In this document: one piece after another, positions 916 through 21,233 of the stretch | Position numbering within the stretch: position 1 is the first letter of the stretch | Layout of the letters: every line of letters begins with the position of its first letter | DNA from: a virus | Virus record (IMG/VR): IMGVR_UViG_3300023184_000593 | Coordinates: 1 to 21,233 of that record | Direction: 5' to 3' (one strand) | Length of the DNA: 21,233 bases | The notes under the pieces: generated by a model | The model's input: the letters and a program-made list of their open reading frames with translations, nothing else | The model's database searches: none | What the model was told of the DNA's origin: nothing | Made by a program: the position numbers and the translations under genes

Positions 916-3219
916 TTAGATAACGCAACTTTCACAGTCTACTTGGTCAATGTCTTCCAGTGCCAATGGCTCTTTGACCATCATCTTGTCCACATCAATT
1001 TCGCCTTGTCCATCATAGGTGTTGAAGTAGTAAAGTTGTTTGCCCCCGTACTTGTAAAATTGTACCAAGTGCTTTAGCATGTCGCTCAATGGAATTTTTT
1101 CTTCTTCGTAGTGTTGTGGATTGTAGCTGGTGTTGACTGAGATGCCTTGATCGATGTATTTTTGTAGAACAGCACAGATATTCATGTAACCTTCTGGGCT
1201 TTTCTGATCCCATAACAATTCGTATTTGTTTTTTAATCTACGGAACTCTGGAACAACTTGTTTCAGCACTCCGTGCTTGCTTTGTTTAACACTCACAAAC
1301 GCACGTGGTGGCTCAATACCATTTGTGGCATTGGCAATCTGTGCAGATGTTTCTGCAGGCATTAGTGCCATCAGGGTTGCATTGCGAATACCGGTGCTGA
1401 GAATCTGCTCACGCAATGCGCCCCATGGCATGCGCTCTTGATGTGGCACCAGTTCGTCAATATCTTTCTTGCGTGTGTCGATGGGCAACAAGCCATCTGC
1501 ATACTTGAGATCTTGCCAGCGCGAACACGGGCCTTGTTCTATAGCTAGGTCCGCACTGGCTTTGATCAGGTAATAACTCCAGGCTTCTGCATATTCGTCA
1601 ACTAGAGCAAGTGCTCGAGGATCAGAATAACTTACATCGTTCTTGGCCAAGAAGTATGCTAGGTTGATGATACCAACACCCAGTGGGCGGAACTCTTCTG
1701 TGGCCAAACGTGCGGCTTTAACTGGATAGTCTTGATAACTCAACAAGGCATCCAAGCCACGTACTGCCAAGCGACCAATGCGTTCGAAATCATGTGGGCT
1801 TTTTACATTGCCCCAATTGGCTGCACTCAAAGTACACAGTGCAATCCTACCATCCTCGTCATTGATATCTTTCAATGGTACAGTTGGCAAATCAATTTCA
1901 GTACACAAATTGCTCATTTTAATTGGAGCAATTTTTTCTTTGAACGGGGAGTGTGTGTTGGCATGATCCACATTCATCAAATAAATGCGGCCAGTGTCTT
2001 TGCGCTCTTGCATGAAGTTAGAGAACAAGGCCACGGCTTTGATAGTCTTCTTGCGAAGCTTGGTATTGCGTTCTGCACGTTCGTACAGTTCTTTGAAACG
2101 ATCTTGATCATTGAAAAATGCTTCATACATCTCAGGCAAGTCGTGTGGTGAGAACAGGGTGATGTCACCATTGGTCAGCAAGCGTTCGTACATGAGCTTG
2201 TTGAACTGCACACCATAGTCCATGTGGCGCACACGATTGTCTTCTGTGCCTTTGTTGTTTTTCAATACCAATAGGTCTTCAACTTCCAAGTGCCAGATTG
2301 GATAGTACAAGGTTGCGGCACCGTTGCGTACACCACCTTGGCTACAGCTACGAGTAGCTGTTTGAAAGTGTTTGTAAAAAGGCACTACGCCGGTGTGATA
2401 GGCATCCCCACGTCGAATGGGACTGCCCAGGGCACGTATTCGTCCTGCACCAATGCCAATACCTGCTTTTTGTGAAACGTACTTGACCACGGCGCTGGCT
2501 GTGGCATTGATACTGTCAAGACTATCGTCTGTTTCAATCAACACACATGAGCTGAATTGTTTTTGCGGAGTACGCAGACCGGCCATGATAGGTGTGGGCA
2601 AACTGATGTCGTGTGTGCTGATGGCATCGTAGTATTCTTTGACCCATTGCAGTCTTGTGGCTGTGGGATACTTCTGGAACAGTGTAGCGGCAATGAGAAT
2701 ATAACCCATTTGCGGGGTTTCAAGGATCTCGCCGGTCACACGATTTTGTACCAGATACTTGCCACGCATCTGCTCCATGGCAACATAGGTTAGTTTTTCA
2801 TCACGTTCGTGCTGGATGAAACTGTTGATCTTGTTCCATTCTTCTTCATTGTAGGCGGCGAGAAGTCCGGTATCGTAATAACCAATCTCCACGTTGCGTT
2901 TCACAAGGTCCAGCAGGGTCCATGGTTCATAGTTGTTGTAAACTTGTTTACGCAAATGGTAGTTTATCAGCCTGCCGGCCACGTACTGATAGTTAGGAGT
3001 TTCTTCACTGATCAGATCTGCCGCACTCTTGATCAGCGTTTCTTGAATTTCAGATGTTTTGATTCCGTTGTAAAATTGTATGTGACTTTTGATTTCAACT
3101 TCGCTTGCACTCACTCCAGTTATGCCTTCTGTGGCCCAAAAAACTACTTGATGTAATTTTTCTAGATTCAGTGACTCTTTGGTGCCGTCTCGCTTGGTTA
3201 CTAAGATATTTTGACTCAT
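916..3219 (-). CDS. nrdA: Class Ia ribonucleotide reductase large (catalytic) subunit
   Basis: Catalytic subunit that reduces ribonucleoside diphosphates to dNDPs together with NrdB. It has 767 residues, close to E. coli NrdA (761) and T4 NrdA. An N-terminal ATP-cone (about residues 3-95) begins with VTKRDGTKE. The active-site residues fall at the same numbers as in E. coli: C225 and C462 (redox pair), N437, C439 (thiyl radical) and E441 in NLCTE, and Y730/Y731 in QLYYFNT on the radical path. The C-terminal shuttle cysteines are C762 and C765 in CESC, a CxxC pair instead of the CxxxxC of E. coli. AGAGGA lies just upstream of the ATG at 3219. I saw no convincing promoter directly before it, so it may be transcribed from further upstream together with the 148-aa gene. 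Confidence 0.98.
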   Translation of the reverse strand: MSQNILVTKRDGTKESLNLEKLHQVVFWATEGITGVSASEVEIKSHIQFYNGIKTSEIQETLIKSAADLISEETPNYQYVAGRLINYHLRKQVYNNYEPWTLLDLVKRNVEIGYYDTGLLAAYNEEEWNKINSFIQHERDEKLTYVAMEQMRGKYLVQNRVTGEILETPQMGYILIAATLFQKYPTATRLQWVKEYYDAISTHDISLPTPIMAGLRTPQKQFSSCVLIETDDSLDSINATASAVVKYVSQKAGIGIGAGRIRALGSPIRRGDAYHTGVVPFYKHFQTATRSCSQGGVRNGAATLYYPIWHLEVEDLLVLKNNKGTEDNRVRHMDYGVQFNKLMYERLLTNGDITLFSPHDLPEMYEAFFNDQDRFKELYERAERNTKLRKKTIKAVALFSNFMQERKDTGRIYLMNVDHANTHSPFKEKIAPIKMSNLCTEIDLPTVPLKDINDEDGRIALCTLSAANWGNVKSPHDFERIGRLAVRGLDALLSYQDYPVKAARLATEEFRPLGVGIINLAYFLAKNDVSYSDPRALALVDEYAEAWSYYLIKASADLAIEQGPCSRWQDLKYADGLLPIDTRKKDIDELVPHQERMPWGALREQILSTGIRNATLMALMPAETSAQIANATNGIEPPRAFVSVKQSKHGVLKQVVPEFRRLKNKYELLWDQKSPEGYMNICAVLQKYIDQGISVNTSYNPQHYEEEKIPLSDMLKHLVQFYKYGGKQLYYFNTYDGQGEIDVDKMMVKEPLALEDIDQVDCESCVI

Positions 3220-5343: not shown

Positions 5344-6050
5344 CTCATGCGGTAATAGAGCTCCACTCGCTTGAGCCACTCCTGTCGCCAGTGCTCAAAC
5401 TCGTCGCCTTCGATGACAAATTCTATGTACTGTGGTGTGTCAAAGTCGCCGTTTGGCAACTGTTTTGGCTGTACAGCCATCAAAATCACACCTGTATTGA
5501 TGTCAGTGCCATGTGTTTCGTTGTGTGCTTCTGCATAGGCCGCTAGCTGTGTAAAGTAGTCAGCAATGTATTCTTTTTTCTTTACTTTGTTGCTTTGCTT
5601 GAAATCCATGATAGCAGGCCGGCCTTTCCACAGGCCCAGACAGTCTGTGGTACCTGCATATAACCCGCTATAATACACAGGTACTTCTGTGCCCCAGAAT
5701 TCGTCTACGTTGCTGAGTCCTTTGAGGATGACCTCCGCGGCCATGAACCAACTGGCATGTCCAAACGGATTGGCTGGCAGGGGTTTTAGTTCATCGCTGA
5801 TGATATACGATTCCAAGTAGCTGTGCATACGTGTGCCACGATTCGCGGCTTCGGTTACAATCTGCTGTGCTTGTTGTTCACCCACACGCTTTTTCCAATT
5901 GGCCAGCGCGGCTCGGCTTTCTTCGCTTTTGGTACGATCTAGTATTGTGGTAACTGACGGAACTTTATCTCCGTTGGGCAATACATAATGGCGCTTGCCT
6001 TCCAGCGTGGTTCTATTGAGAGGTTTGTAATCGAATTTGTTTGTGATCAT
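5340..6050 (-). CDS. PD-(D/E)XK exonuclease, RecB/Cas4-like
   Basis: Predicted metal-dependent DNA nuclease of the RecB/Cas4/AddB-type fold, 236 aa. The family motifs can be read in order: H76 in GTRMHSYLE, E122 in GTEVPVY, D136 in TTDCLG, the D149-F-K151 active site in AIMDFKQSNK and the Q168-x3-Y172 motif in QLAAYAEA. Only one cysteine is present, so it lacks the Fe-S cluster of Cas4 and AddB even though it follows iscA. Its ATG at 6050 overlaps the iscA stop (ATGA), so the two are translationally coupled. Likely roles are host DNA degradation, recombination or end processing during replication; the sequence does not decide between them. Confidence 0.88.
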   Translation of the reverse strand: MITNKFDYKPLNRTTLEGKRHYVLPNGDKVPSVTTILDRTKSEESRAALANWKKRVGEQQAQQIVTEAANRGTRMHSYLESYIISDELKPLPANPFGHASWFMAAEVILKGLSNVDEFWGTEVPVYYSGLYAGTTDCLGLWKGRPAIMDFKQSNKVKKKEYIADYFTQLAAYAEAHNETHGTDINTGVILMAVQPKQLPNGDFDTPQYIEFVIEGDEFEHWRQEWLKRVELYYRMS

Positions 6051-6367
6051 ATTCTAAAAGATTCTCCGCAACCACAACGGTCACGTTCCAAAGGGTTATT
6101 GAATTCAAAGCCTTCGTTAAGGCCCTGACGAACATAGTCTATTTCTATATTTTCTACGATGGCAAGATCTCTTGTGTCAATGATAATGCTAAATCCATCC
6201 TGCGGAAAAGATGTTGATCCTTCCCATGTTTCGTCAACATATTCTAGCACATAAGCCAGTCCAGAGCAACCAGTGGTTCGTATGCCAACTTTGATGCCAA
6301 TGCCATGGCCTCGTTTGGCAATACTATCCAGGATCTTTTTACTGGCTGTGCTTGTTACGGTAATCAT
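6047..6367 (-). CDS. iscA: IscA/HesB-type iron-sulfur cluster carrier
   Basis: A-type carrier that receives Fe-S clusters from a scaffold and hands them to apo-enzymes in the cytoplasm. It has 106 residues, the usual family length. The three cluster-binding cysteines are present: C34 in TTGCSGLAY, and C98 and C100 in DRCGCGESF at the C-terminus. The GLNEGFEFNNP block before the last cysteines is typical of IscA. The gene overlaps the end of iscU by 29 bases and the nuclease start by 4 bases, so all three are coupled. HesB/IscA-like genes are known in T4-like cyanophages; having the IscU scaffold beside it is less usual. IscA is preferred over SufA or ErpA because of the neighbour and the overall match, but the subfamilies are close. 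Confidence 0.93.
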   Translation of the reverse strand: MITVTSTASKKILDSIAKRGHGIGIKVGIRTTGCSGLAYVLEYVDETWEGSTSFPQDGFSIIIDTRDLAIVENIEIDYVRQGLNEGFEFNNPLERDRCGCGESFRI

Positions 6368-6716
6368 TTACAGCCGCTTTAATAGCATCTTCTGCAAGAA
6401 TGCTACAATGTATTTTAACCGGTGGGAGGGCAAGTTCTTCAGCAATTCGTGAATTAGTAATCTTTCCCGCTTCGTCAAGCGTTTTTCCCTTGACCCACTC
6501 TGTAACAAGACTTGAGCTGGCGATTGCTGATCCGCAACCGTATGTTTTGAATTTTGCGTCCGTGATAATGCCATCTTGCACCTTTATCTGTAGTTTCATA
6601 ACATCGCCGCAGGCAGGTGCACCTACCATGCCTGTGCCGACTGTGTCGTCAATTTCTAGCTTGCCCACATTGCGTGGGTTTTCATAATGATCAATTACTT
6701 TGTCTGAATATGCCAT
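6339..6716 (-). CDS. iscU: IscU iron-sulfur cluster assembly scaffold
   Basis: Scaffold on which IscS-derived sulfur and iron form [2Fe-2S] clusters. At 125 residues it is nearly the full E. coli length (128). All key residues are present: C36 and D38 in APACGDVMK, C61 in YGCGSA, H103 and C104 in KIHCS, and the LPPVK motif (97-101) that binds the HscA chaperone. It starts MAYSDKVIDHYENPRNVG, almost identical to proteobacterial IscU, and VGTGMVGAP plus EELALPPVK look betaproteobacterial to me. No iscS, hscA, hscB or fdx is in the window, so it must use the host desulfurase and chaperones. AGGA lies 6 nt before the ATG, and the 2OG oxygenase ends 3 bases upstream. The strong conservation suggests recent gain from a host and retained function. 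Confidence 0.96.
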   Translation of the reverse strand: MAYSDKVIDHYENPRNVGKLEIDDTVGTGMVGAPACGDVMKLQIKVQDGIITDAKFKTYGCGSAIASSSLVTEWVKGKTLDEAGKITNSRIAEELALPPVKIHCSILAEDAIKAAVNDYRNKHSQ

Positions 6717-10566: not shown

Positions 10567-11118
10567 TCACATATTTGGCAGTAGTTCCACTATGTCCAAC
10601 AGCAAAGAGTGTCGGTGTATTTCTCTGCGTATATTATCAATTGCCATGCGTTTTTCCATGTCTGTGGCCCTGCGCCAGTCTATCACTGTGCGGCGCACAC
10701 TCCATAGGGTGCTGTCGTTGATTTGTAGCATGGCTTCTAGATTAAGAAAGAACTGACGTACCATGCCAGACGAAAAATAACGTTGTTTGAGGTTCTGCAT
10801 GTAGCTGTTGATCTGTAGCATGGGTGCGCTGACATCAAAATCTACTTGAATTTTTTCTTCGTATTCGCTTTGATTGTTTAGTATACACACTAAGTTTGCA
10901 ACGTCTGTGGTGCCCATACGCATACTATCAAAGTCGCCAAATTGTAGGGTTTTAACGGCATAGTTACGCACAGCATATTCATCTATTTTGCGAGCAAGTT
11001 CTAGTGCTAGCAAAGCCACATACAAGGTCTTGCCCAGCTGATGTGCTGACTGCCCACGCAGTCCGCCTGCACCACGAAACATCCTAGCTTCTTTGAGATC
11101 TTGTATGAACTCTAGCAT
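10567..11118 (-). CDS. Unknown late-operon protein (183 aa)
   Basis: No domain recognised. It begins MLEFIQDLKEARMFRGAGG: LKE followed by A at residues 8-11 is a good match to the (L/I)xE|A/G cut site of T4 prohead protease. The body is helical with many Met, Leu and Arg residues (KRMAIDNIRREIHRHS) and is soluble. Its ATG overlaps the stop of the ligase-like gene by one base (TGATG), so it is the last coupled gene of the late operon. Position and N-terminus suggest a virion or internal capsid protein; function is unknown. Confidence 0.72.
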   Translation of the reverse strand: MLEFIQDLKEARMFRGAGGLRGQSAHQLGKTLYVALLALELARKIDEYAVRNYAVKTLQFGDFDSMRMGTTDVANLVCILNNQSEYEEKIQVDFDVSAPMLQINSYMQNLKQRYFSSGMVRQFFLNLEAMLQINDSTLWSVRRTVIDWRRATDMEKRMAIDNIRREIHRHSLLLDIVELLPNM

Positions 11119-12251
11119 CAGCCATTTTTAGCAAAGTTTGCTCTGCTAAATCCCAGTCGGTCAATCAACTTGAACTTGTCTGCGCCACCACCCACAACAT
11201 AGCCTTCATGGCCAGGATCTTGGCCAGTGAAGGCTTGTATATCACCTGTGGCCTGCTGTCCGTCAATCTGTTGCTTGATGTTGATCTTTAGGTTGTAGAT
11301 AGCAACCCAGACTGCAAACATACCTTGCAGGCCTGTTTGGCCTTCACCATACAGCCAGCCTTTGCCACCACCTAGTAATTTTTCAGCCGCTGTTGGACTT
11401 AGATTTTTACCAAGGTAATCATAAAAGCCGTCAAGCATGTTATCAAAGTTGCCTGCGGAGATCTTGCTGGTAATGTACTTGCTGGCCAAGCCAATGATGC
11501 CTTTGGCTTTCATTAGCGTGAGTTGTCCAATGAAGTCAGTGACTGCTTGGTTGTATTTTTTAACTTCTGCATTGGCCGCATCCACTGCGGTCTTGTCCAT
11601 CTTGACCTTGGGCACAGGCATTTCACCTGTCACAAACCAAATTGGATTACCGTCTTTGGGCAAGCCGCCTGTGCCTTTTAATGGCTGATCTGGTTCACCA
11701 ATGCTGGGAATAAAACTGTGTACAGCAATGCCTGCCACACTATTACCGACTCGTGCGCCCATGTCGCTGTCTGCTCGAACCTTGTAGGTAACTGTGTTGG
11801 GCTTGAATACATAGAAGCCATCCGTGGGCTGTAGGCGTCCTGCGTACAGCAAATCACCAAAGTAAAAGCCCCTGAAGTTGCCAGGAATGATGGTTTCCAG
11901 TGCCGGCCATAGCAGGTTTATCTTGCCGTACAAGTCAGCACGGTCAGCACCACGGTTGATGTCATATTGTTGGAATTCTTCAGCACTGGTAACACGGCCT
12001 TCGCCGGACTTCTTTTCAAACATGTGTTTGTCCATTACCATCAACTGTCCGTCCACGTTGCGTCCAAACACCAGTGCAGGGAATCCGTCCCACTTGATGG
12101 TAGTAAGTTCTTTACCTTGTGCCATGGCAGCAAGGCCTGCAATGGCCTGTTGTGCGCCAGCAATGCCGTCAGTCCAAATAGCATCCTCAGGATGCACAAT
12201 GCCTTCCTTGATCACTTGTGGTTTACGTGCAAATATTTCTGTTATTTTCAT
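11118..12251 (-). CDS. Predicted ligase-fold nucleotidyltransferase (covalent Lys-NMP type), 377 aa
   Basis: The protein carries what read as the motifs of the DNA/RNA ligase and capping-enzyme superfamily, in order: motif I K53-W-D-G56 in TIKWDGFPAL with R64 ten residues on, a motif III-like FYFGDLLY (129-136), motif IV E349-G-Y-V-V in HEGYVVGG and motif V K359-F-K361-L. Motif I lysine would carry the nucleotide. The spacing between motifs III and IV is long, with an insert (about 200-340) of unknown role, and no C-terminal OB domain is evident. It begins MKITEIFARKPQVIKEG with ITE and IKE|G, fitting prohead-protease sites. It overlaps the second pol-beta-like gene (ATGA). Whether it ligates DNA or RNA or acts differently cannot be told. 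Confidence 0.72.
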   Translation of the reverse strand: MKITEIFARKPQVIKEGIVHPEDAIWTDGIAGAQQAIAGLAAMAQGKELTTIKWDGFPALVFGRNVDGQLMVMDKHMFEKKSGEGRVTSAEEFQQYDINRGADRADLYGKINLLWPALETIIPGNFRGFYFGDLLYAGRLQPTDGFYVFKPNTVTYKVRADSDMGARVGNSVAGIAVHSFIPSIGEPDQPLKGTGGLPKDGNPIWFVTGEMPVPKVKMDKTAVDAANAEVKKYNQAVTDFIGQLTLMKAKGIIGLASKYITSKISAGNFDNMLDGFYDYLGKNLSPTAAEKLLGGGKGWLYGEGQTGLQGMFAVWVAIYNLKINIKQQIDGQQATGDIQAFTGQDPGHEGYVVGGGADKFKLIDRLGFSRANFAKNG

Positions 12252-13267
12252 CTGAAATAGCCCTGCACCATGTCAAGGCCCTGTTGTATTTTTGCTCTAT
12301 CTGCGTCAGCTCTAGCAATAGCATCTGGAGTTTGCGCTTTGTCACGTTTCTTGCCTGCGATGTCTATCATGGCTTTTTCTTGATACCGTGCCCAAAACTT
12401 ATTTAAGTAATCTTGCGCTGAGCCAAAGTTCTTTAGGTCGCCTTGGCCAAACATGCCATTGATTTCACAGCTTTCAGCAAATGCTTTGAGTCCTTGCACC
12501 ATCTTACCAATCTTGACATCAGCAATATTAACACCACCATATGTCTTTAGTGCAGGACGAATCTTGGGTCGTTCCACCCCCATTTGCTGTGCCAGGTACA
12601 TGAATGTATCGTAGATAAATGATTCAGGATTTGTAGATACTGTCACAGTCTCTGTGTCTTTTTGTTTGCTGAAAGGCACACGCTCATTGTCAATGACCTT
12701 TAACTGTACGCCAGCATGTTGTATGCTCATGTCCAGCAGTTCGCCAAACACACTCCACATGTTGCCTGTCAGTAGACCTTTGACACCATGCTCTGGAGTA
12801 ACACGGGCGGCACCCCAGGCTCGCATCTTGGGCTCATGCCACATGAAGTCTACTTGTACAAATGCGCCGTCACCTATTTGAATGATAGGATGCCCTGGCT
12901 TGCTTTCCACAGGATGTACATAGCCAGGATTTGTTGTTTTAACAAACTCGTCTGCTAGTTTGTTCCAGTGACCAGTAAACTGTCCGTATGTTAGCCCTTC
13001 TACAGGAGGAGCAATCATCTGCAGATCAATGTCACCGTACACTTTGTCTGGATCGTTTTGTGTATCACGTTCATGATACGCACTAGAACCTGTTGGTGTG
13101 CCCATTTGTACTGGACTGGATCCTTGTTGTTCTAGCCATGCATTGAAGTCTTGCACAAATTTCTGCACAACACCTAGTGCAATTTTAACCACCGCAGGCT
13201 TGATCACAGTACCTTGTGTTACTGTAGTATCCCACCCGCCTTCGTTGATAAATTCATGTATTTTCAT
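12248..13267 (-). CDS. Predicted pol-beta-fold nucleotidyltransferase B (339 aa)
   Basis: Motifs of the polymerase-beta/MNT-type nucleotidyltransferase superfamily: G60-S61 in PTGSSAYHERD, the metal pair D79 and D81 in YGDIDLQM, and a third carboxylate D140 in FVQVDFMW. The gap from GS to DxD is longer than usual. I chose the ATG at 13267 (MKIHEFINEGGW): it overlaps the previous stop as ATGA and gives the shared MKIxE start; an ATG at 13303 would only add 12 untypical residues. The C-terminal half is helical and ends QGLDMVQGYFR. FINE|GG fits a prohead-protease site. The substrate is unknown: nucleotide addition to RNA or to protein are both possible for this superfamily. Confidence 0.74.
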   Translation of the reverse strand: MKIHEFINEGGWDTTVTQGTVIKPAVVKIALGVVQKFVQDFNAWLEQQGSSPVQMGTPTGSSAYHERDTQNDPDKVYGDIDLQMIAPPVEGLTYGQFTGHWNKLADEFVKTTNPGYVHPVESKPGHPIIQIGDGAFVQVDFMWHEPKMRAWGAARVTPEHGVKGLLTGNMWSVFGELLDMSIQHAGVQLKVIDNERVPFSKQKDTETVTVSTNPESFIYDTFMYLAQQMGVERPKIRPALKTYGGVNIADVKIGKMVQGLKAFAESCEINGMFGQGDLKNFGSAQDYLNKFWARYQEKAMIDIAGKKRDKAQTPDAIARADADRAKIQQGLDMVQGYFR

Positions 13268-14037
13268 TGATCTACCAGAATATTTTGCATCTGGCGGAAC
13301 CATGTAGATGAACCTTCAGCAACTGGCTCGTGCAAATTAAGTATGCCCTTGGCAGCGTCATCGCGAGCCTGTGCCAGTTTAAGATCACGTTGAGGATCAT
13401 CAGCCAGTGCTTTTATGATACTCTTTACGCTGTTGAAATCTGCTCCTGTTGCACCAGGAATTAACTTGTCTGCAACAGAATCTCGATCCGGGCCGGCAAC
13501 CGGTTCATTGTTGTCGCGTCGTAGCAGGTTACCACTAAATGCATCAAACTTCAAGCCTAGGGGTTTACCTATGCTGTTCATCAGGATGAATATGGCATTA
13601 CCTTTGAAGTCAGGATCATCATAACTACCACGCGGTCCATGTTGATGCCAAGGTGCAACCCCAGTAGCATTTGGAATGACCATGAGGTCTACTTGTCCAA
13701 ACGTACCATCAGGAAGTGGCACACGTATGTGTACATTGCGCCCTTTCATTATGGTCTGGAGGCCTGTTTTTTCGGTCAAAGCATTAGCGAGCCACTGCTT
13801 GGCTGCTTTTACAGGGTCTTTTTTATCGTCCTTGGTACCGGCTTTTTCAATAACTTGATCTTGGTCTAGGAACAAATCCATGTCCCCACTTGCAACCTTG
13901 AAACCTGCAGAGCCAATGTGTGGCTCCACCTTGAAGCTGGGCAGGGCGGCCTGCACGAATTTCAACACGCCAGGAACATACTCTTTCTTGATGTCCACTA
14001 CATCTGGCCAAATATTGCCGCCTTCAGTTAACTGCAT
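13264..14037 (-). CDS. Predicted pol-beta-fold nucleotidyltransferase A (257 aa)
   Basis: Reads as a compact pol-beta-type catalytic core: G42-S43 in PHIGSAGFKV, D52 and D54 in SGDMDLFLD, and third carboxylate D117 in FGQVDLMV. The last motif is nearly the same as in the following gene (VQVDFM), which suggests that the two are paralogues. It begins MQLTEGGNIW, with LTE|GG fitting (L/I)xE|G. CAGGAG lies 5 nt before the ATG at 14037. It follows the LysM gene by 2 bases and overlaps the next gene by 4. The C-terminal part (about 185-257) is helical and ends WFRQMQNILVDQ. Its activity and target are unknown. Confidence 0.75.
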   Translation of the reverse strand: MQLTEGGNIWPDVVDIKKEYVPGVLKFVQAALPSFKVEPHIGSAGFKVASGDMDLFLDQDQVIEKAGTKDDKKDPVKAAKQWLANALTEKTGLQTIMKGRNVHIRVPLPDGTFGQVDLMVIPNATGVAPWHQHGPRGSYDDPDFKGNAIFILMNSIGKPLGLKFDAFSGNLLRRDNNEPVAGPDRDSVADKLIPGATGADFNSVKSIIKALADDPQRDLKLAQARDDAAKGILNLHEPVAEGSSTWFRQMQNILVDQ

Positions 14038-16789: not shown

Positions 16790-18199
16790 TTACGAGTTCT
16801 GCGCTTTGATGCCTGCAAGCATACTTTTCAGCTTGCTACCATTTACGTCTGCTTTGATTGATGCAATTTCGCCTGTGTCAGAGTCTACATTGTCACTTTT
16901 GGGCACTACCCTACTGCTACTTTTGATCTGGTTCATGATGCTGGTAGCATGTGGTTGATACCCGCTGGCGTCTTCGCCCTCATCTGTGATACGCATGGTT
17001 TCAATGTTGTAAGTCAAATCAATCTTCATGCCCACACCTGTTGAAGAGCGAGATTTCATACACTGGATTTGGTAACGTCCACGCTCACGCATGGCTCTAG
17101 AAGTAAAAATACCAAACACATTATCTGCTGTGTTAATCTTTGAAATACCACCCGAGATATGACTGTGGTCAAACTCCACTTCTTCCACTGCACTACGATT
17201 CAGCTGGCTTGCTGTTACCATCAAGATGCCCAGCTCTTTGGCCAAGTTACGCAGTTCTTCACTCACGTACTTGTCTTTCACAAACAAGTCGTTGGGGCTA
17301 ACTTTGGCACTCACAGGCATGAGCAAGTCCAAGTAATCAATCATCATGAAGTCTACTTTCTTGCCTGTTTGTATCTGATACTCTTTCAAGAATGCACGGA
17401 TATCATTGATGTTGCTCTGTGCTGGCAATGCCTTGACCTGATAGCTACCAGACTTCTTGCCCACCATCTTGACCTTGAGTGTGGCTGTGTCAATATCCTT
17501 GCGGATATCTTTGGTACTGGTACTGGTCAGCATGGCATCTGTTCTCAAACTGGTTAGTTCTTCGCTAAGTTCCAAGCTGACATACACACCACTAAGTCCT
17601 GCTTGCACCCAGTTCAGTGCAATGTTCATCATGACAAGTGACTTACCTGATCCAGAGCCACCTGCAAAGATGTTCAGCTCGCCGCGACTGAATCCACCGT
17701 ATAATAGTTTGTCCAGCTGTGGCCAACCTGTTGATACTTGACCACCTGAGTTGAAGTATTTGTTGATACGAGCACTAGGATCATAAAAGTAATCTGTACC
17801 TAGATCTTTCTGCAGGCTGATTTGCACAGCATCTTTGATCAGCTTTTCCACAGGATTAAAGTCACCAGCTTCGATCAAGTCAGCGGCTTTGAGAATTGCA
17901 CGTTCTAGTTCTTTTTGTTTTGTAAAGTTTTCAAACTCTTCCAGGAACCAGCTGGTGTGGCCTTCGTTCATTTCTGGAATAGGTTTTAGTTCAACCTGGC
18001 ACGTGGCTCGAATTTGATCTACTGTGGGTAGTGTGTGATGATTGTCACTGTGTTCTTTGATAAACTTTGCGGCAGCTCTGATGCTACGGTCAAAGTTTTC
18101 TTCGTTGAAGATGTTCTGCACACGCACATAGCTTTGTGCATCATGCAACATCATTTCTAAAAATAGTTTTTGTAGGTCTGTGTTATAGTCTTTTGTCAT
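16790..18199 (-). CDS. Replicative DNA helicase (DnaB / T4 gp41 type)
   Basis: Hexameric 5'-3' helicase that unwinds the fork ahead of the phage polymerase and works with the primase. It has 469 residues, the usual gp41 size. An N-terminal helical domain (about 1-130) precedes a RecA-like motor: Walker A GGSGSGKS (180-187), Walker B FMMIDYLDLL with D288, and the DnaB-type H3 motif TASQLNRSAVEE; HISGGISKINTAD follows as in the family. The C-terminal tail (about 400-469) is Ser/Asp-rich and ends GIKAQNS, a likely contact site for partners. The ATG at 18199 overlaps the stop of the radical SAM gene (ATGA), so both are coupled to the primase. Confidence 0.95.
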   Translation of the reverse strand: MTKDYNTDLQKLFLEMMLHDAQSYVRVQNIFNEENFDRSIRAAAKFIKEHSDNHHTLPTVDQIRATCQVELKPIPEMNEGHTSWFLEEFENFTKQKELERAILKAADLIEAGDFNPVEKLIKDAVQISLQKDLGTDYFYDPSARINKYFNSGGQVSTGWPQLDKLLYGGFSRGELNIFAGGSGSGKSLVMMNIALNWVQAGLSGVYVSLELSEELTSLRTDAMLTSTSTKDIRKDIDTATLKVKMVGKKSGSYQVKALPAQSNINDIRAFLKEYQIQTGKKVDFMMIDYLDLLMPVSAKVSPNDLFVKDKYVSEELRNLAKELGILMVTASQLNRSAVEEVEFDHSHISGGISKINTADNVFGIFTSRAMRERGRYQIQCMKSRSSTGVGMKIDLTYNIETMRITDEGEDASGYQPHATSIMNQIKSSSRVVPKSDNVDSDTGEIASIKADVNGSKLKSMLAGIKAQNS

Positions 18200-19068
18200 A
18201 GTGTTCTACAAGTATAACTGCAAACAGGTGCAGGGTCAATTCTCATTTGCTCATCATATGAGCCTAATTGTTCTAGTACTTGGCTTAGTGTAGTGTTACT
18301 TATATTGTAGTCGTCCCGGTTTGCATGGAACTGACTCTTATAATGAAACACATGGTTGGCTGAGTAACAGCAAGGCGAGTACTGGCCGCCTGCGCCAATG
18401 TAGTGTTGGTCACCTGTGGCACACATTGGATCCATGTTACCTGCGCCACGATGCCAAATAATAGTCTGTTCCTGTGGACGTAGCGGATCGTCATCACCAA
18501 ACCTATTGCTAGGATCTAGTTTAAGGGTCATACCACGTGACTCGGCCATTACTCTGACTGCATCTATTTCATGTTCGTTGAAAGCAAACGGAACCATCTT
18601 CCAAACAACTTGTGCAGAGGTTTCACAAGCTGTACGCATGCCAGCGTCAATTGTGGACCAATCACTGTTGGTTCTGTATTGAGGACTAGTTTCTGGTAAC
18701 CCGTCCACGCTGAACTCAACAACATCATCTTGTGTTAAATTTTGTAGTGTTTGTTTCCACCATGCGTCAGTCCGGTAACTACCATTGGTTGTCAACACAA
18801 TACGGCCTCGCTGGTCTTTGATGTATGCAATTAGTTCTTCTAATCTACTGTAGTAGATAGGGTCGCCTATGTTACCACACAATCCCCATCGCAAACCTGT
18901 CACATCCATGTCCATGAACCGGACCAGCGCATCCAGGTCTAGGTCTTGATTGTGCCAGTTCTTTTGGCCAAATTTGTTTATAAACTGTGTGCGCTCACAC
19001 GCAGAACATCCTAGCACACAACGATTGGTTGGTTCTAAATGGAATCCAGTCAGTTTCATTGTTTGCAT
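18196..19068 (-). CDS. Radical SAM enzyme with possible auxiliary Fe-S cluster
   Basis: Predicted to cleave S-adenosylmethionine with a [4Fe-4S] cluster and make a radical; substrate unknown. The cluster motif C17-x3-C21-x2-C24 is in NRCVLGCSACERTQF, a GGEP-like SAM site is CGNIGDPIYY (64-73), and later motifs LTTNGS and EFSVDGL fit the barrel. C216, C233, C234, C283 and C287 near the C-terminus could bind a second cluster, as in SPASM or twitch-type enzymes. 290 aa from 19068, or 287 from Met4 at 19059, which would give a 4-base overlap with the primase stop. It sits between primase and helicase and overlaps both, which suggests a DNA- or nucleotide-related job, but peptide or RNA substrates are equally possible. 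It is a likely client of the phage IscU/IscA. Confidence 0.88.
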   Translation of the reverse strand: MQTMKLTGFHLEPTNRCVLGCSACERTQFINKFGQKNWHNQDLDLDALVRFMDMDVTGLRWGLCGNIGDPIYYSRLEELIAYIKDQRGRIVLTTNGSYRTDAWWKQTLQNLTQDDVVEFSVDGLPETSPQYRTNSDWSTIDAGMRTACETSAQVVWKMVPFAFNEHEIDAVRVMAESRGMTLKLDPSNRFGDDDPLRPQEQTIIWHRGAGNMDPMCATGDQHYIGAGGQYSPCCYSANHVFHYKSQFHANRDDYNISNTTLSQVLEQLGSYDEQMRIDPAPVCSYTCRTL

Positions 19069-20111
19069 CTCAATCGGATCTTCACAGGATTACGTTCCAC
19101 GCTGTCTATAATGCTTTTGAGCACAAACAGCTTGCCGTATTTTTCCACTGCCTTGGCCACGTCCTTGCACTCAGCATCGTCACGCCATACAGGAAACGCC
19201 ACACCCCAGCTGTACTCTATGGCTTTTTCAATCAGCATCATGCCCGGCCATACTTCTTGACCACGCTTGTCTGTGTGTCGATCAAAGTCAGGCACAACAA
19301 TAACATCACGTCCCAGACTTTCGATTATCTCTGCTTGTGTTTCGCTACACTCGTTGCCCAGTATAGCAACACCGTCTATGGCCATGGCATCAAATGGGCC
19401 TTCCGACACCACAACAAATCTAGCATCATCCAGTTGTCGATCCATGTTAAACACATAGTTACCGTCATGACTGTTGTGATATTTAGGCTTGATTCCATCT
19501 ACCAACGCTCTGGCAGTATAACCAATTGTCTTGTTCTTCCAGGTAAACGGAATTATCAATCGTTTGTCTAGATTGTAGCTGGACTCGTCAGTGATGTAGA
19601 AATCATATTTACTCATATCAATTTTACGACTGCTGACATATTCCACAGCATCAACCAGCTGAGTTGGTACAACATAATCTTCATCAGTTAGTCGTAGCAT
19701 GGTGGTCCACTGTGTGAAACTGGCGCTGTCTTCTGGCAGTGGGCGTGGCTTGTAAGTGACTTCGACTTCGGGCACAGGCGCACGTTCTTCTACTGGCACC
19801 AGCTCTTTGATACGCATGGCTTCCATGACCAGGCGCTGTACTGTGTTGGGATCTGCACCCAACCAGCCCAACAGTTTGCGAAACTTGAAGTTCATTGGGC
19901 GTCCAGGATAGAAGCCTGTTTTGAACCCACAGTTGAAACAGTGATAGGTTACGCTGCCATCGTGATTGGGTAACACGCCGCCACGTCGGCGTGTGTCTGC
20001 ACTTTCTCCGCTGTGGGGGCAACAAACCGCATTGAAGCTTATCCATTTATTGGATGTCTTTTTATGCGGCGGTAGTAGATTAAGTAGCTCTCGTTGGATC
20101 AGATCGTGCAT
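19056..20111 (-). CDS. DNA primase with zinc ribbon and TOPRIM domain
   Basis: Makes RNA primers for lagging-strand synthesis with the helicase two genes downstream. 351 aa from the ATG at 20111. The N-terminal zinc ribbon has C31-x-H33 in CCPHSGE and C58-x2-C61 in HCFNCGF; the TOPRIM core has E237 in VSEGPFDAMA and D275/D277 in VVPDFDRHTD; KYHNSHDGNYVFN is typical of this type. I reject the in-frame ATG at 20285 because its extra 58 residues overlap a divergent gene and look like non-coding translation, and because the sigma-70-type promoter lies at 20117-20145. That promoter ends 5 nt before the ATG, so the message appears leaderless. Confidence 0.93.
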   Translation of the reverse strand: MHDLIQRELLNLLPPHKKTSNKWISFNAVCCPHSGESADTRRRGGVLPNHDGSVTYHCFNCGFKTGFYPGRPMNFKFRKLLGWLGADPNTVQRLVMEAMRIKELVPVEERAPVPEVEVTYKPRPLPEDSASFTQWTTMLRLTDEDYVVPTQLVDAVEYVSSRKIDMSKYDFYITDESSYNLDKRLIIPFTWKNKTIGYTARALVDGIKPKYHNSHDGNYVFNMDRQLDDARFVVVSEGPFDAMAIDGVAILGNECSETQAEIIESLGRDVIVVPDFDRHTDKRGQEVWPGMMLIEKAIEYSWGVAFPVWRDDAECKDVAKAVEKYGKLFVLKSIIDSVERNPVKIRLRCKQ

Positions 20112-20116
20112 AGCGT

Positions 20117-20145
20117 ATTGTAACACACTTGTCAAGAAAAAACAA
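20117..20145 (-). promoter_or_regulatory. Sigma-70-like promoter for primase-radical SAM-helicase
   Basis: Minus strand TTGTTT (20140-20145), 17-nt spacer, TACAAT (20117-20122), then 5 nt to the ATG. A perfect TTGACA at 20130-20135 is also present but only 7 nt from TACAAT, so it is not the paired -35. Expected early transcription by host RNA polymerase. Confidence 0.6.
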
Positions 20146-20161
20146 GCGGTTCGTTTTGGAA

Positions 20162-20168
20162 CTAAATA
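20162..20168 (+). promoter_or_regulatory. T4-late-like promoter CTAAATA for the plus-strand gene
   Basis: The plus strand reads ACTAAATA, 27 nt before the GTG at 20196, nearly the same spacing as two late elements on the other strand. It lies back to back with the early promoter of the primase operon. Confidence 0.62.
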
Positions 20169-20195
20169 ATTTGGCGCACAAAATAGATTGAACCC

Positions 20196-20573
20196 GTGGA
20201 CGACAAACAAACAGAATTTATCAAGAAGTATCCCTTCATTAGTTACGTGGTGTATGGCGGTAATGAATATATCGGCATCATACAAAACGTGGATGATATC
20301 CTCACCACTGTATACGACTTCGGTAGCTTGAAAACCGAACTTGAAAAAACAACATTCCTAGCACTGGGTGAAACTTGGTGGTGGGAATCTAATAGAAGCA
20401 TACCAATCAACGTGTTCCTTAGAGCAGACTGGGGACCATTCCGCTACAGCCTTAAAACAATGAACAGCCGCGATGTGGAAATTAAATTTGGACCTTATGT
20501 GAGTCTAAAAGAAATTGCCGCAAAGAAAACCAAACGCCGTTCAATTGTGCTTGTTCGCAAGATCCCCGACTAA
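20196..20573 (+). CDS. Unknown protein, the only plus-strand gene (125 aa)
   Basis: No domain recognised. It starts with GTG at 20196; the protein begins MDDKQTEFIKKYPFISYVVYGG and looks like a compact alpha/beta protein (NEYIGIIQNVDD, WWWESNRSIPINVFLR) with a basic C-terminus (KKTKRRSIVLVRK). Small proteins with this YPF-YGG-EYIGII look are, from memory, common in marine T4-like phages. It has its own late-type promoter and runs against the replication genes; its last 33 bases overlap the end of the convergent DnaE-like gene. Late transcription through it could antagonise expression of the genes to its right. No clear Shine-Dalgarno site is seen. Confidence 0.75.
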   Translation: MDDKQTEFIKKYPFISYVVYGGNEYIGIIQNVDDILTTVYDFGSLKTELEKTTFLALGETWWWESNRSIPINVFLRADWGPFRYSLKTMNSRDVEIKFGPYVSLKEIAAKKTKRRSIVLVRKIPD

Positions 20574-21134
20574 ATTCATATTCACTATAACCAGGTGTGC
20601 ATACGCTACAGCGTGGCTCTTCTTGAAATAGTACCCATCATCATCAGGTTTGGTCCAAACTTCTTGTGCCACATCTGCCCAGGTCTTTCCAATCAAATGA
20701 CGTTTAGCAGGTCTGATAACTGCTAGAAGCATGGCCAGTCGCGGAATTGTATCCACTGGCTCCAGCATCTTTTTTAGCACACTCCAGTGATTGTTTACAT
20801 GTATTAGCTGTTCAAAGAACGCCTGATCTGTATTAAATCTTGTCCAGTCGGGTGGCGTATCCATTAACTGTTCTAGATGTGCTTCACTACGCACTTGCTG
20901 ATATAAGTTAACGTTAAGGAAATCCAGTTTCAAGTAGCCACGTCTTTCAGCATACTCATATGGCAAGCTGGCTAGTTTGGCAAACGGATCTTCTGGAATA
21001 TCTGTCACATACACGCCGGTGTTGTGCGCCACTAGTTTGTCTTCACGCAACATACTCGCAGGCACATGCTTGACTATATCAAGTATTTTCTTTCTGTCAG
21101 CAAAATCAATGTCAATGTCTGATTGGAACTTCAT
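20541..21134 (-). CDS. Mini DnaE-like protein (bacterial DNA polymerase III alpha remnants), 197 aa
   Basis: Short blocks resemble the palm and thumb neighbourhood of C-family polymerases in the right order: DIDIDFADR (6-14; DnaE PDxDIDF with catalytic D8 and D10), HNTGVYVTD (38-46; DnaE HAGGV), GYLKLDFLNV (67-76; DnaE VKFDFLGL, third catalytic D71) and YYFKKSHAVAYAHL (168-181; DnaE FNKSHAAAYAL). The family has over 1,000 residues, so the PHP domain, fingers and beta-binding parts are missing. There are no frameshifts or stops, and the ATG at 21134 is coupled to the upstream gene (ATGA), so this looks like a functional small protein rather than decay. A polymerase accessory or a stripped nucleotidyltransferase are possible roles. 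Confidence 0.7.
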   Translation of the reverse strand: MKFQSDIDIDFADRKKILDIVKHVPASMLREDKLVAHNTGVYVTDIPEDPFAKLASLPYEYAERRGYLKLDFLNVNLYQQVRSEAHLEQLMDTPPDWTRFNTDQAFFEQLIHVNNHWSVLKKMLEPVDTIPRLAMLLAVIRPAKRHLIGKTWADVAQEVWTKPDDDGYYFKKSHAVAYAHLVIVNMNLVGDLANKHN

Positions 21135-21233
21135 AGCTTGTATCCATAATCTTTAACTACGTCGCGGTCATCACGTGTCAGTCCTGCCCGGTCAGCCAGT
21201 GTGTCTCTACGACTTCTGTGTGTGACTGATATA
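21131..21233 (-). CDS. C-terminal end of an unknown upstream gene (partial)
   Basis: An open frame enters from the right edge and ends at TGA 21133-21131, overlapping the ATG of the DnaE-like gene. The visible 33 residues include RRDTLADRAGLTRDD and end VVKDYGYKL; they are highly charged and give no family. Its place next to replication genes suggests a replication or recombination protein, but this cannot be supported from the fragment. Confidence 0.6.
   Translation of the reverse strand, partial: ISVTHRSRRDTLADRAGLTRDDRDVVKDYGYKL

Follow-up and report, generated by a model that had tools for sequence, protein, structure and literature searches.

A gene at 20541-21134 on the minus strand of an IMG/VR virus record, IMGVR_UViG_3300023184_000593, was found to encode a derivative of the C-family DNA polymerases, i.e. 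of Pol III alpha. The DNA analysed, referred to below as the window, is a 21,233-nucleotide fragment of this record. The product is quite probably the C-terminal, metal-binding half of a Pol III alpha core that is encoded as two genes and forms a two-subunit, thumbless accessory polymerase. This reading is based on the homology that each half shows to Pol III alpha, the abutting division between them, their near-complete co-occurrence, the invariance of the catalytic residues, the B-family polymerase found alongside and the lack of a PHP domain. The partner and the B-family polymerase were deduced from relatives of the window phage. The product of the gene is called the C-half and its partner the N-half.

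20541-21134, minus strand: half-polymerase gene, 197 amino acids (aa), PHROG 11778; probable C-terminal half of a palm/fingers core of Pol III alpha that is split between two genes

The region 20541-21134 is a genuine gene, and purifying selection acts on it. The minus strand has an open, ATG-started frame of 197 aa; an equally long open reading frame would occur by chance at this base composition with p ~2e-5 per start. The gene is probably translationally coupled to the upstream gene, since its ATG overlaps the stop codon of the latter (ATGA). The copy at locus L001 is 92% identical, and the ratio of non-synonymous to synonymous substitutions (dN/dS) of 0.083, at a dS of 0.55, indicated purifying selection. 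This comparison, together with the relatives present in phage records and in IMG/VR, settled that the gene is real, and the description of an intact frame coupled to its neighbour, given in an earlier note on this DNA, was borne out.

The protein is a member of PHROG 11778 (E 4e-59), a family conserved among phages. Relatives were detected by tblastn in 63 phage records, including Agrobacterium phage Atu_ph07, Sinorhizobium phage Phosso, Pseudomonas phages PA5oct and Paride, the RaK2/121Q/GAP32/CBB group, Salicola phage SCTP-2 and Alishewanella phage Slicko01. Within IMG/VR, a relative is encoded in at least 94 stretches. Gene length was uniform (~190-200 aa) across phages of many hosts and the frames of the relatives were intact. 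In many phage records the family was unannotated or misannotated ('hypothetical', 'putative membrane protein'). Both halves were present in the circular, 141-kb genome of Slicko01, which rules out a distribution strictly confined to jumbo phages. A search of 84,980 species genomes with the C-half yielded 11 metagenome-bin loci only, and no isolate was matched. Half-polymerase genes thus also occur in bins labelled bacterial or archaeal, e.g. at loci L229 and L234 in the Neomarinimicrobiota metagenome bin RS350. The one locus inspected (L234) has phage-like synteny, so such bins probably contain phage contigs binned with hosts by mistake, and a cellular origin of the half-polymerase was rejected.

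Relationship of the C-half to Pol III alpha

Searches of Pfam, NCBIfam and PDB with the single half-polymerase sequence revealed no relative, and a C-half profile compared with PDB sequences gave no match to Pol III alpha. The DnaE family PHROG 405 was matched at the KSH motif (E 6e-4). Family alignments were then compared by hhalign with an alignment of 10 DnaE sequences, that of E. coli among them. The window family matched with E 5.2e-6 and a set of 17 diverse phage C-half copies with E 3.5e-11. As a null control, the columns of the family alignment were shuffled and rerun through hhalign; the C-half score was 51.9, against a maximum of 24.2 in 150 shuffles, the best of which reached E 0.043. 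Such a comparison of hidden Markov models had been named in the earlier note as a test that could refute its claim of a DnaE-like protein, and with these significant matches the claim was not refuted. The C-family origin proposed there was supported both by the profile match and by the retention of the catalytic aspartates.

Five blocks of the C-half correspond to motifs of DnaE (in parentheses): DIDIDF (DFDVDF, residues 401-406 in E. coli), HNTGVY (HAGGVV), YLKLDFLN (LVKFDFLG), FKKSHAVAYA (FNKSHSAAYA) and IRPAK (FRPGP), the last being an addition to the four blocks of the earlier note. The catalytic aspartates of Pol III alpha are D401, D403 and D555 in E. coli. The motif PDFDVDF of E. coli DnaE comprises aspartates 401, 403 and 405, and VKFDFLG contains aspartate 555. 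When DIDIDF and DFDVDF were aligned position by position, D6 of the C-half corresponded to D401, D8 to D403 and D10 to D405, and D71 corresponded to D555. The earlier note had listed D8, D10 and D71 as the catalytic set; the blocks, D8 and D71 stood, but D10 is the equivalent of D405 and D6 had been missed, i.e. the set was shifted by one motif step. Further equivalents in E. coli were K553 for K69, H511 for H37, R639-P640 for R141-P142 and H760 for H174. Residues D6, D8, D10, H37, K69, D71, R141, P142, K144, H174 and Y178 were identical in 80/80 sequences.

An AlphaFold2 model of the C-half, built with 44 sequences, had a mean predicted local distance difference test score (pLDDT) of 89.3 and a predicted template modelling score of 0.75. 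Foldseek placed Pol III alpha first (E 0.0045, probability 0.99). In the VIA alignment, residues 1-196 were superimposed on E. coli ~397-784 (Z 9.4, root-mean-square deviation 3.5, 190 residues); Pol III alpha and PolC accounted for all of the 12 best entries (Z 5.8-9.4), and the first unrelated entry came at Z 2.7. According to the model, the C-half has a partial palm fold of the Pol-beta-like type, which would be completed by the N-half, and the fold match suggests that the three catalytic aspartates lie close together. Structure prediction, proposed in the earlier note as a check on whether the palm is complete, thus returned the fold of Pol III alpha and PolC, but only part of the palm.

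Large parts of the bacterial enzyme are absent. The DFDVDF and HAGGVV motifs are separated by ~105 residues in E. coli and by 25 in the half-polymerase, indicating that the thumb is gone. Most of the fingers, including LRRAMGKKK, are missing from the interval between FRPGP and FNKSH. The statement in the earlier note that about 80 percent of the family length has been lost is correct when counted over the whole protein (197 of 1160 aa, ~83% absent), but within the span covered, E. coli ~397-784, roughly half is kept.

The N-half and the division point

A Pol-beta-like palm also needs a GS motif that holds the triphosphate, and the GRGS triphosphate-binding motif is absent from the half-polymerase chain. 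This part was found to be encoded separately in the same phages, by a second gene at another locus (PHROG 11127, ~175 aa, motif GxGRGSS). The copy of phage CBB, gp328 (CBB_328), has 172 aa, matches PF07733 (E 2e-8) and PHROG 11127, contains GLGRGSS and ends in ...NEFLKW; its relatives in other phages stop at the same point or within a few residues of it. Residues G143, R146, G147 and S148 of the N-half were invariant in all 94 sequences. The N-half model (pLDDT 92.9) placed residues 74-173 on E. coli ~277-393, with Z 9.8-12 in the best rows.

When N- and C-half sequences were paired, hhalign against the DnaE alignment gave a single collinear alignment with E 4.7e-20 and a score of 164.6, the null maximum being 23.1 in 60 shuffles; over all null controls, no E was better than 0.02. 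Only two residues lay between the end of the N-half and the start of the C-half. From this gap and from the fit of the N-half to 277-393 and of the C-half to 397-784, it follows that the two proteins divide Pol III alpha inside the palm, at E. coli 393/397. The division point was exact and the same in all lineages. The N-half gene lies before the clamp-loader gene and the C-half gene before those of primase and helicase, at a distance from each other of 34 kb in CBB and ~125 kb in the IMG/VR record G001.

A fused gene was looked for in 94 N-half and 98 C-half loci and was not found. In one IMG/VR contig of 191 kb (L100, 5584-6513), the N-half lies in an open frame of 310 codons; the ~130 additional residues upstream are possibly a domain fusion or due to a late start. 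This 310-aa frame (L100/L186) was considered as a fusion of both halves and rejected, the extra part being an upstream open extension and not a C-half.

Among the 60 phage records listed with a C-half, 58 also appeared in the N-half search, and Slicko01 was added by profile search (59/60). The single exception is a 109-kb UNVERIFIED record from a phage group with ~350-kb genomes. Of 20 IMG/VR records in which one or both of the halves were present, 11 had both. A B-family polymerase was detected in 7/7 phage records tested and in 12/20 IMG/VR records, the others being mostly fragments. No PHP domain was found in 16 related phage records, while the control was positive in 14/14. A DnaQ exonuclease, considered as a general partner, was rejected, having been found in 7/18 records only.

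Proposed function and alternative explanations

The two chains would associate and together restore a single active site in the palm, to which the C-half would contribute D6, D8 and D71 and the N-half partner GRGS. At the phage replisome, such a dimer could serve as a DNA polymerase or nucleotidyltransferase that works distributively and on short patches; its candidate tasks alongside the B-family replicase are primer extension, gap filling or repair. The lack of a thumb and of clamp-binding parts points to short, distributive synthesis rather than genome replication, and the latter is presumably performed by the B-family enzyme. On balance, we favour a working DNA polymerase of large T4-related phages, with a palm site assembled in trans from two proteins, that operates without thumb, PHP or clamp-binding parts beside a B-family replicase. 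The assignment of the dimer to primer extension, gap filling or repair at the replisome is the least certain step and is offered tentatively.

Several observations weigh against a two-gene polymerase. The 21-kb window showed no match to the N-half, and no B-family polymerase is in its gene list. Four larger IMG/VR records lacked one half, namely G005, G012 and G013 the C-half and G002 the N-half; these four may be fragments. Foldseek taken alone gave no match with E < 0.001. Also, the fingers region LRRAMGKKK of E. coli is without a counterpart, which means that substrate binding must differ from that of the E. coli enzyme.

The two halves might instead form a non-catalytic mimic of Pol III, serving as a decoy or adaptor that binds Pol III partners of the host or the primase or clamp loader of the phage. 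Such a role would be in line with the absence of the thumb, most of the fingers, and the PHP, clamp-binding and tau-binding parts, with bulk synthesis already being carried out by a B-family polymerase in complete relatives, and with the location of the genes next to primase-helicase and clamp loader. A decoy would, however, not need the three aspartates, K69 and H174, invariant in 80 sequences, or the GRGS of the partner, invariant in 94. Moreover, the clamp- and tau-contacting C-terminal regions, the likeliest targets of host mimicry, are exactly those that have been lost. We regard a mimic as unlikely, and the decoy of host Pol III suggested in the earlier note is not favoured, given that the catalytic residues examined are kept in 80/80 sequences and the partner gene is co-conserved.

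It is very improbable that the C-half works alone, or with another partner such as a primase accessory, as a small metal-dependent nucleotidyltransferase whose likeness to a polymerase reflects only ancestry. In every phage examined, its gene does stand with primase and helicase and away from the gene of the N-half, and the two half genes are far apart, as in CBB and G001. Against this, a palm without the GRGS strand and helix has no known triphosphate site, the co-occurrence of the halves is almost complete, and the division point is exact in all lineages. The minimal nucleotidyltransferase put forward in the earlier note therefore does not hold as a stand-alone enzyme, because the triphosphate-holding part of the palm is encoded as the second gene. 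A full-length host DnaE that decayed after capture could explain why only ~17% of the DnaE length is left; this was refuted by the dN/dS of 0.083, the intact frames, the single length of ~190-200 aa across many hosts and the invariant active-site residues.

Genomic neighbourhood and known systems

The genes around the half-polymerase gene in the window are:

21131-21233, minus strand: upstream gene, 3' end only; its stop overlaps the half-polymerase start (ATGA)
20196-20573, plus strand: small convergent gene, 125 aa, PHROG 11637, function unknown; overlaps the half-polymerase 3' end by 33 bp
19056-20285, minus strand: DnaG/gp61-type DNA primase, longest frame
18196-19068, minus strand: radical SAM protein (PF04055, E 5e-7), between primase and replicative helicase
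16790-18199, minus strand: DnaB/gp41-type replicative helicase

The upstream gene runs off the window; the complete copy in L001 has 169 aa and showed no Pfam match. All relatives examined had a convergent, opposite-strand gene at the position of the small convergent gene. In Phosso, Atu_ph07, RaK2, Paride, CBB, Slicko01 and L234 this gene was of similar size, and such a conserved arrangement at the 3' end of the half-polymerase gene may be regulatory. The true start of the primase is probably located further inside the frame. The order of half-polymerase and primase genes was the same in RaK2, CBB, Phosso and Paride. A radical SAM gene also follows the primase gene in L001.

Further genes were observed at a distance. 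Three consecutive minus-strand genes at 11118-14037 contain nucleotidyltransferase-like motifs, as judged by eye: a KWDG motif at 11118-12251 (DUF6267), a GSS...DID motif at 12248-13303 and a GSAG...DMD motif at 13264-14037; for the last of these genes, a poly(A) polymerase palm was matched weakly and below the threshold (E 0.085). Two adjacent and overlapping iron-sulphur assembly genes on the minus strand (6047-6367 and 6339-6716) encode an A-type carrier (PF01521, E 2e-14) and an IscU/NifU-type scaffold (PF01592, E 7e-53), and a class I ribonucleotide reductase is encoded nearby at 916-3219.

No biochemical test of a split Pol III pair was found in the literature searched, which did not extend to subscription papers and preprints. 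Should the halves indeed make up an enzyme, few known C-family polymerases would be as small, and its palm would be divided within the active site. Two questions would then become accessible to tests: how little a replicative Pol III core needs, and whether the large enzyme of bacteria arose by growth of a module of this kind, as proposed by Iyer et al. (2021; Viruses 13:63, PMC7824862), or whether phages cut it down.

The C-half resembles E. coli DnaE (PF07733 and PF17657) in its DIDID and KxD palm strands and its HxxGV, RP and FxKSHxxAY motifs. Unlike bacterial DnaE, it has no PHP, thumb, HhH/clamp-binding, OB or tau-binding parts and lacks most of the fingers, and GRGS is encoded in the other gene. 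In Pectobacterium phage CBB, CBB_328 has been reported as a truncated 'DNA polymerase III alpha' of 172 aa (PMC5259590). It is the N-terminal partner (PHROG 11127) of the same split enzyme and not the C-half; the C-half of CBB is gp287, which carries the label 'putative membrane protein' in KU574722.

In group 2.2 jumbo phages, according to the excerpted text of PMC7824862, a minimal Pol III alpha is split into an NTP-binding protein and a Mg2+/template-binding protein; these are encoded by distant genes beside a B-family polymerase and are proposed to reconstitute an enzyme. Atu_ph07 is common to that system and to the phages in which close relatives of the window gene were detected. The half-polymerase appears to be the C-terminal unit of that pair; the match was made without an accession, as none is given in the description. 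A C-family miniature in a T4-type phage, called unexpected in the earlier note, does contrast with the B-family enzyme used for replication by this phage group, but, as the same text shows, had already been described. The relatives of the window phage share with that system the separate N- and C-half genes at distant loci and the co-resident B-family polymerase. Beyond what the excerpted text contains, the present analysis placed the split point, modelled both halves, identified the invariant residues and counted the co-occurrence of the halves, and it extended the pair to the 141-kb phage Slicko01 and to many uncultivated phage contigs.
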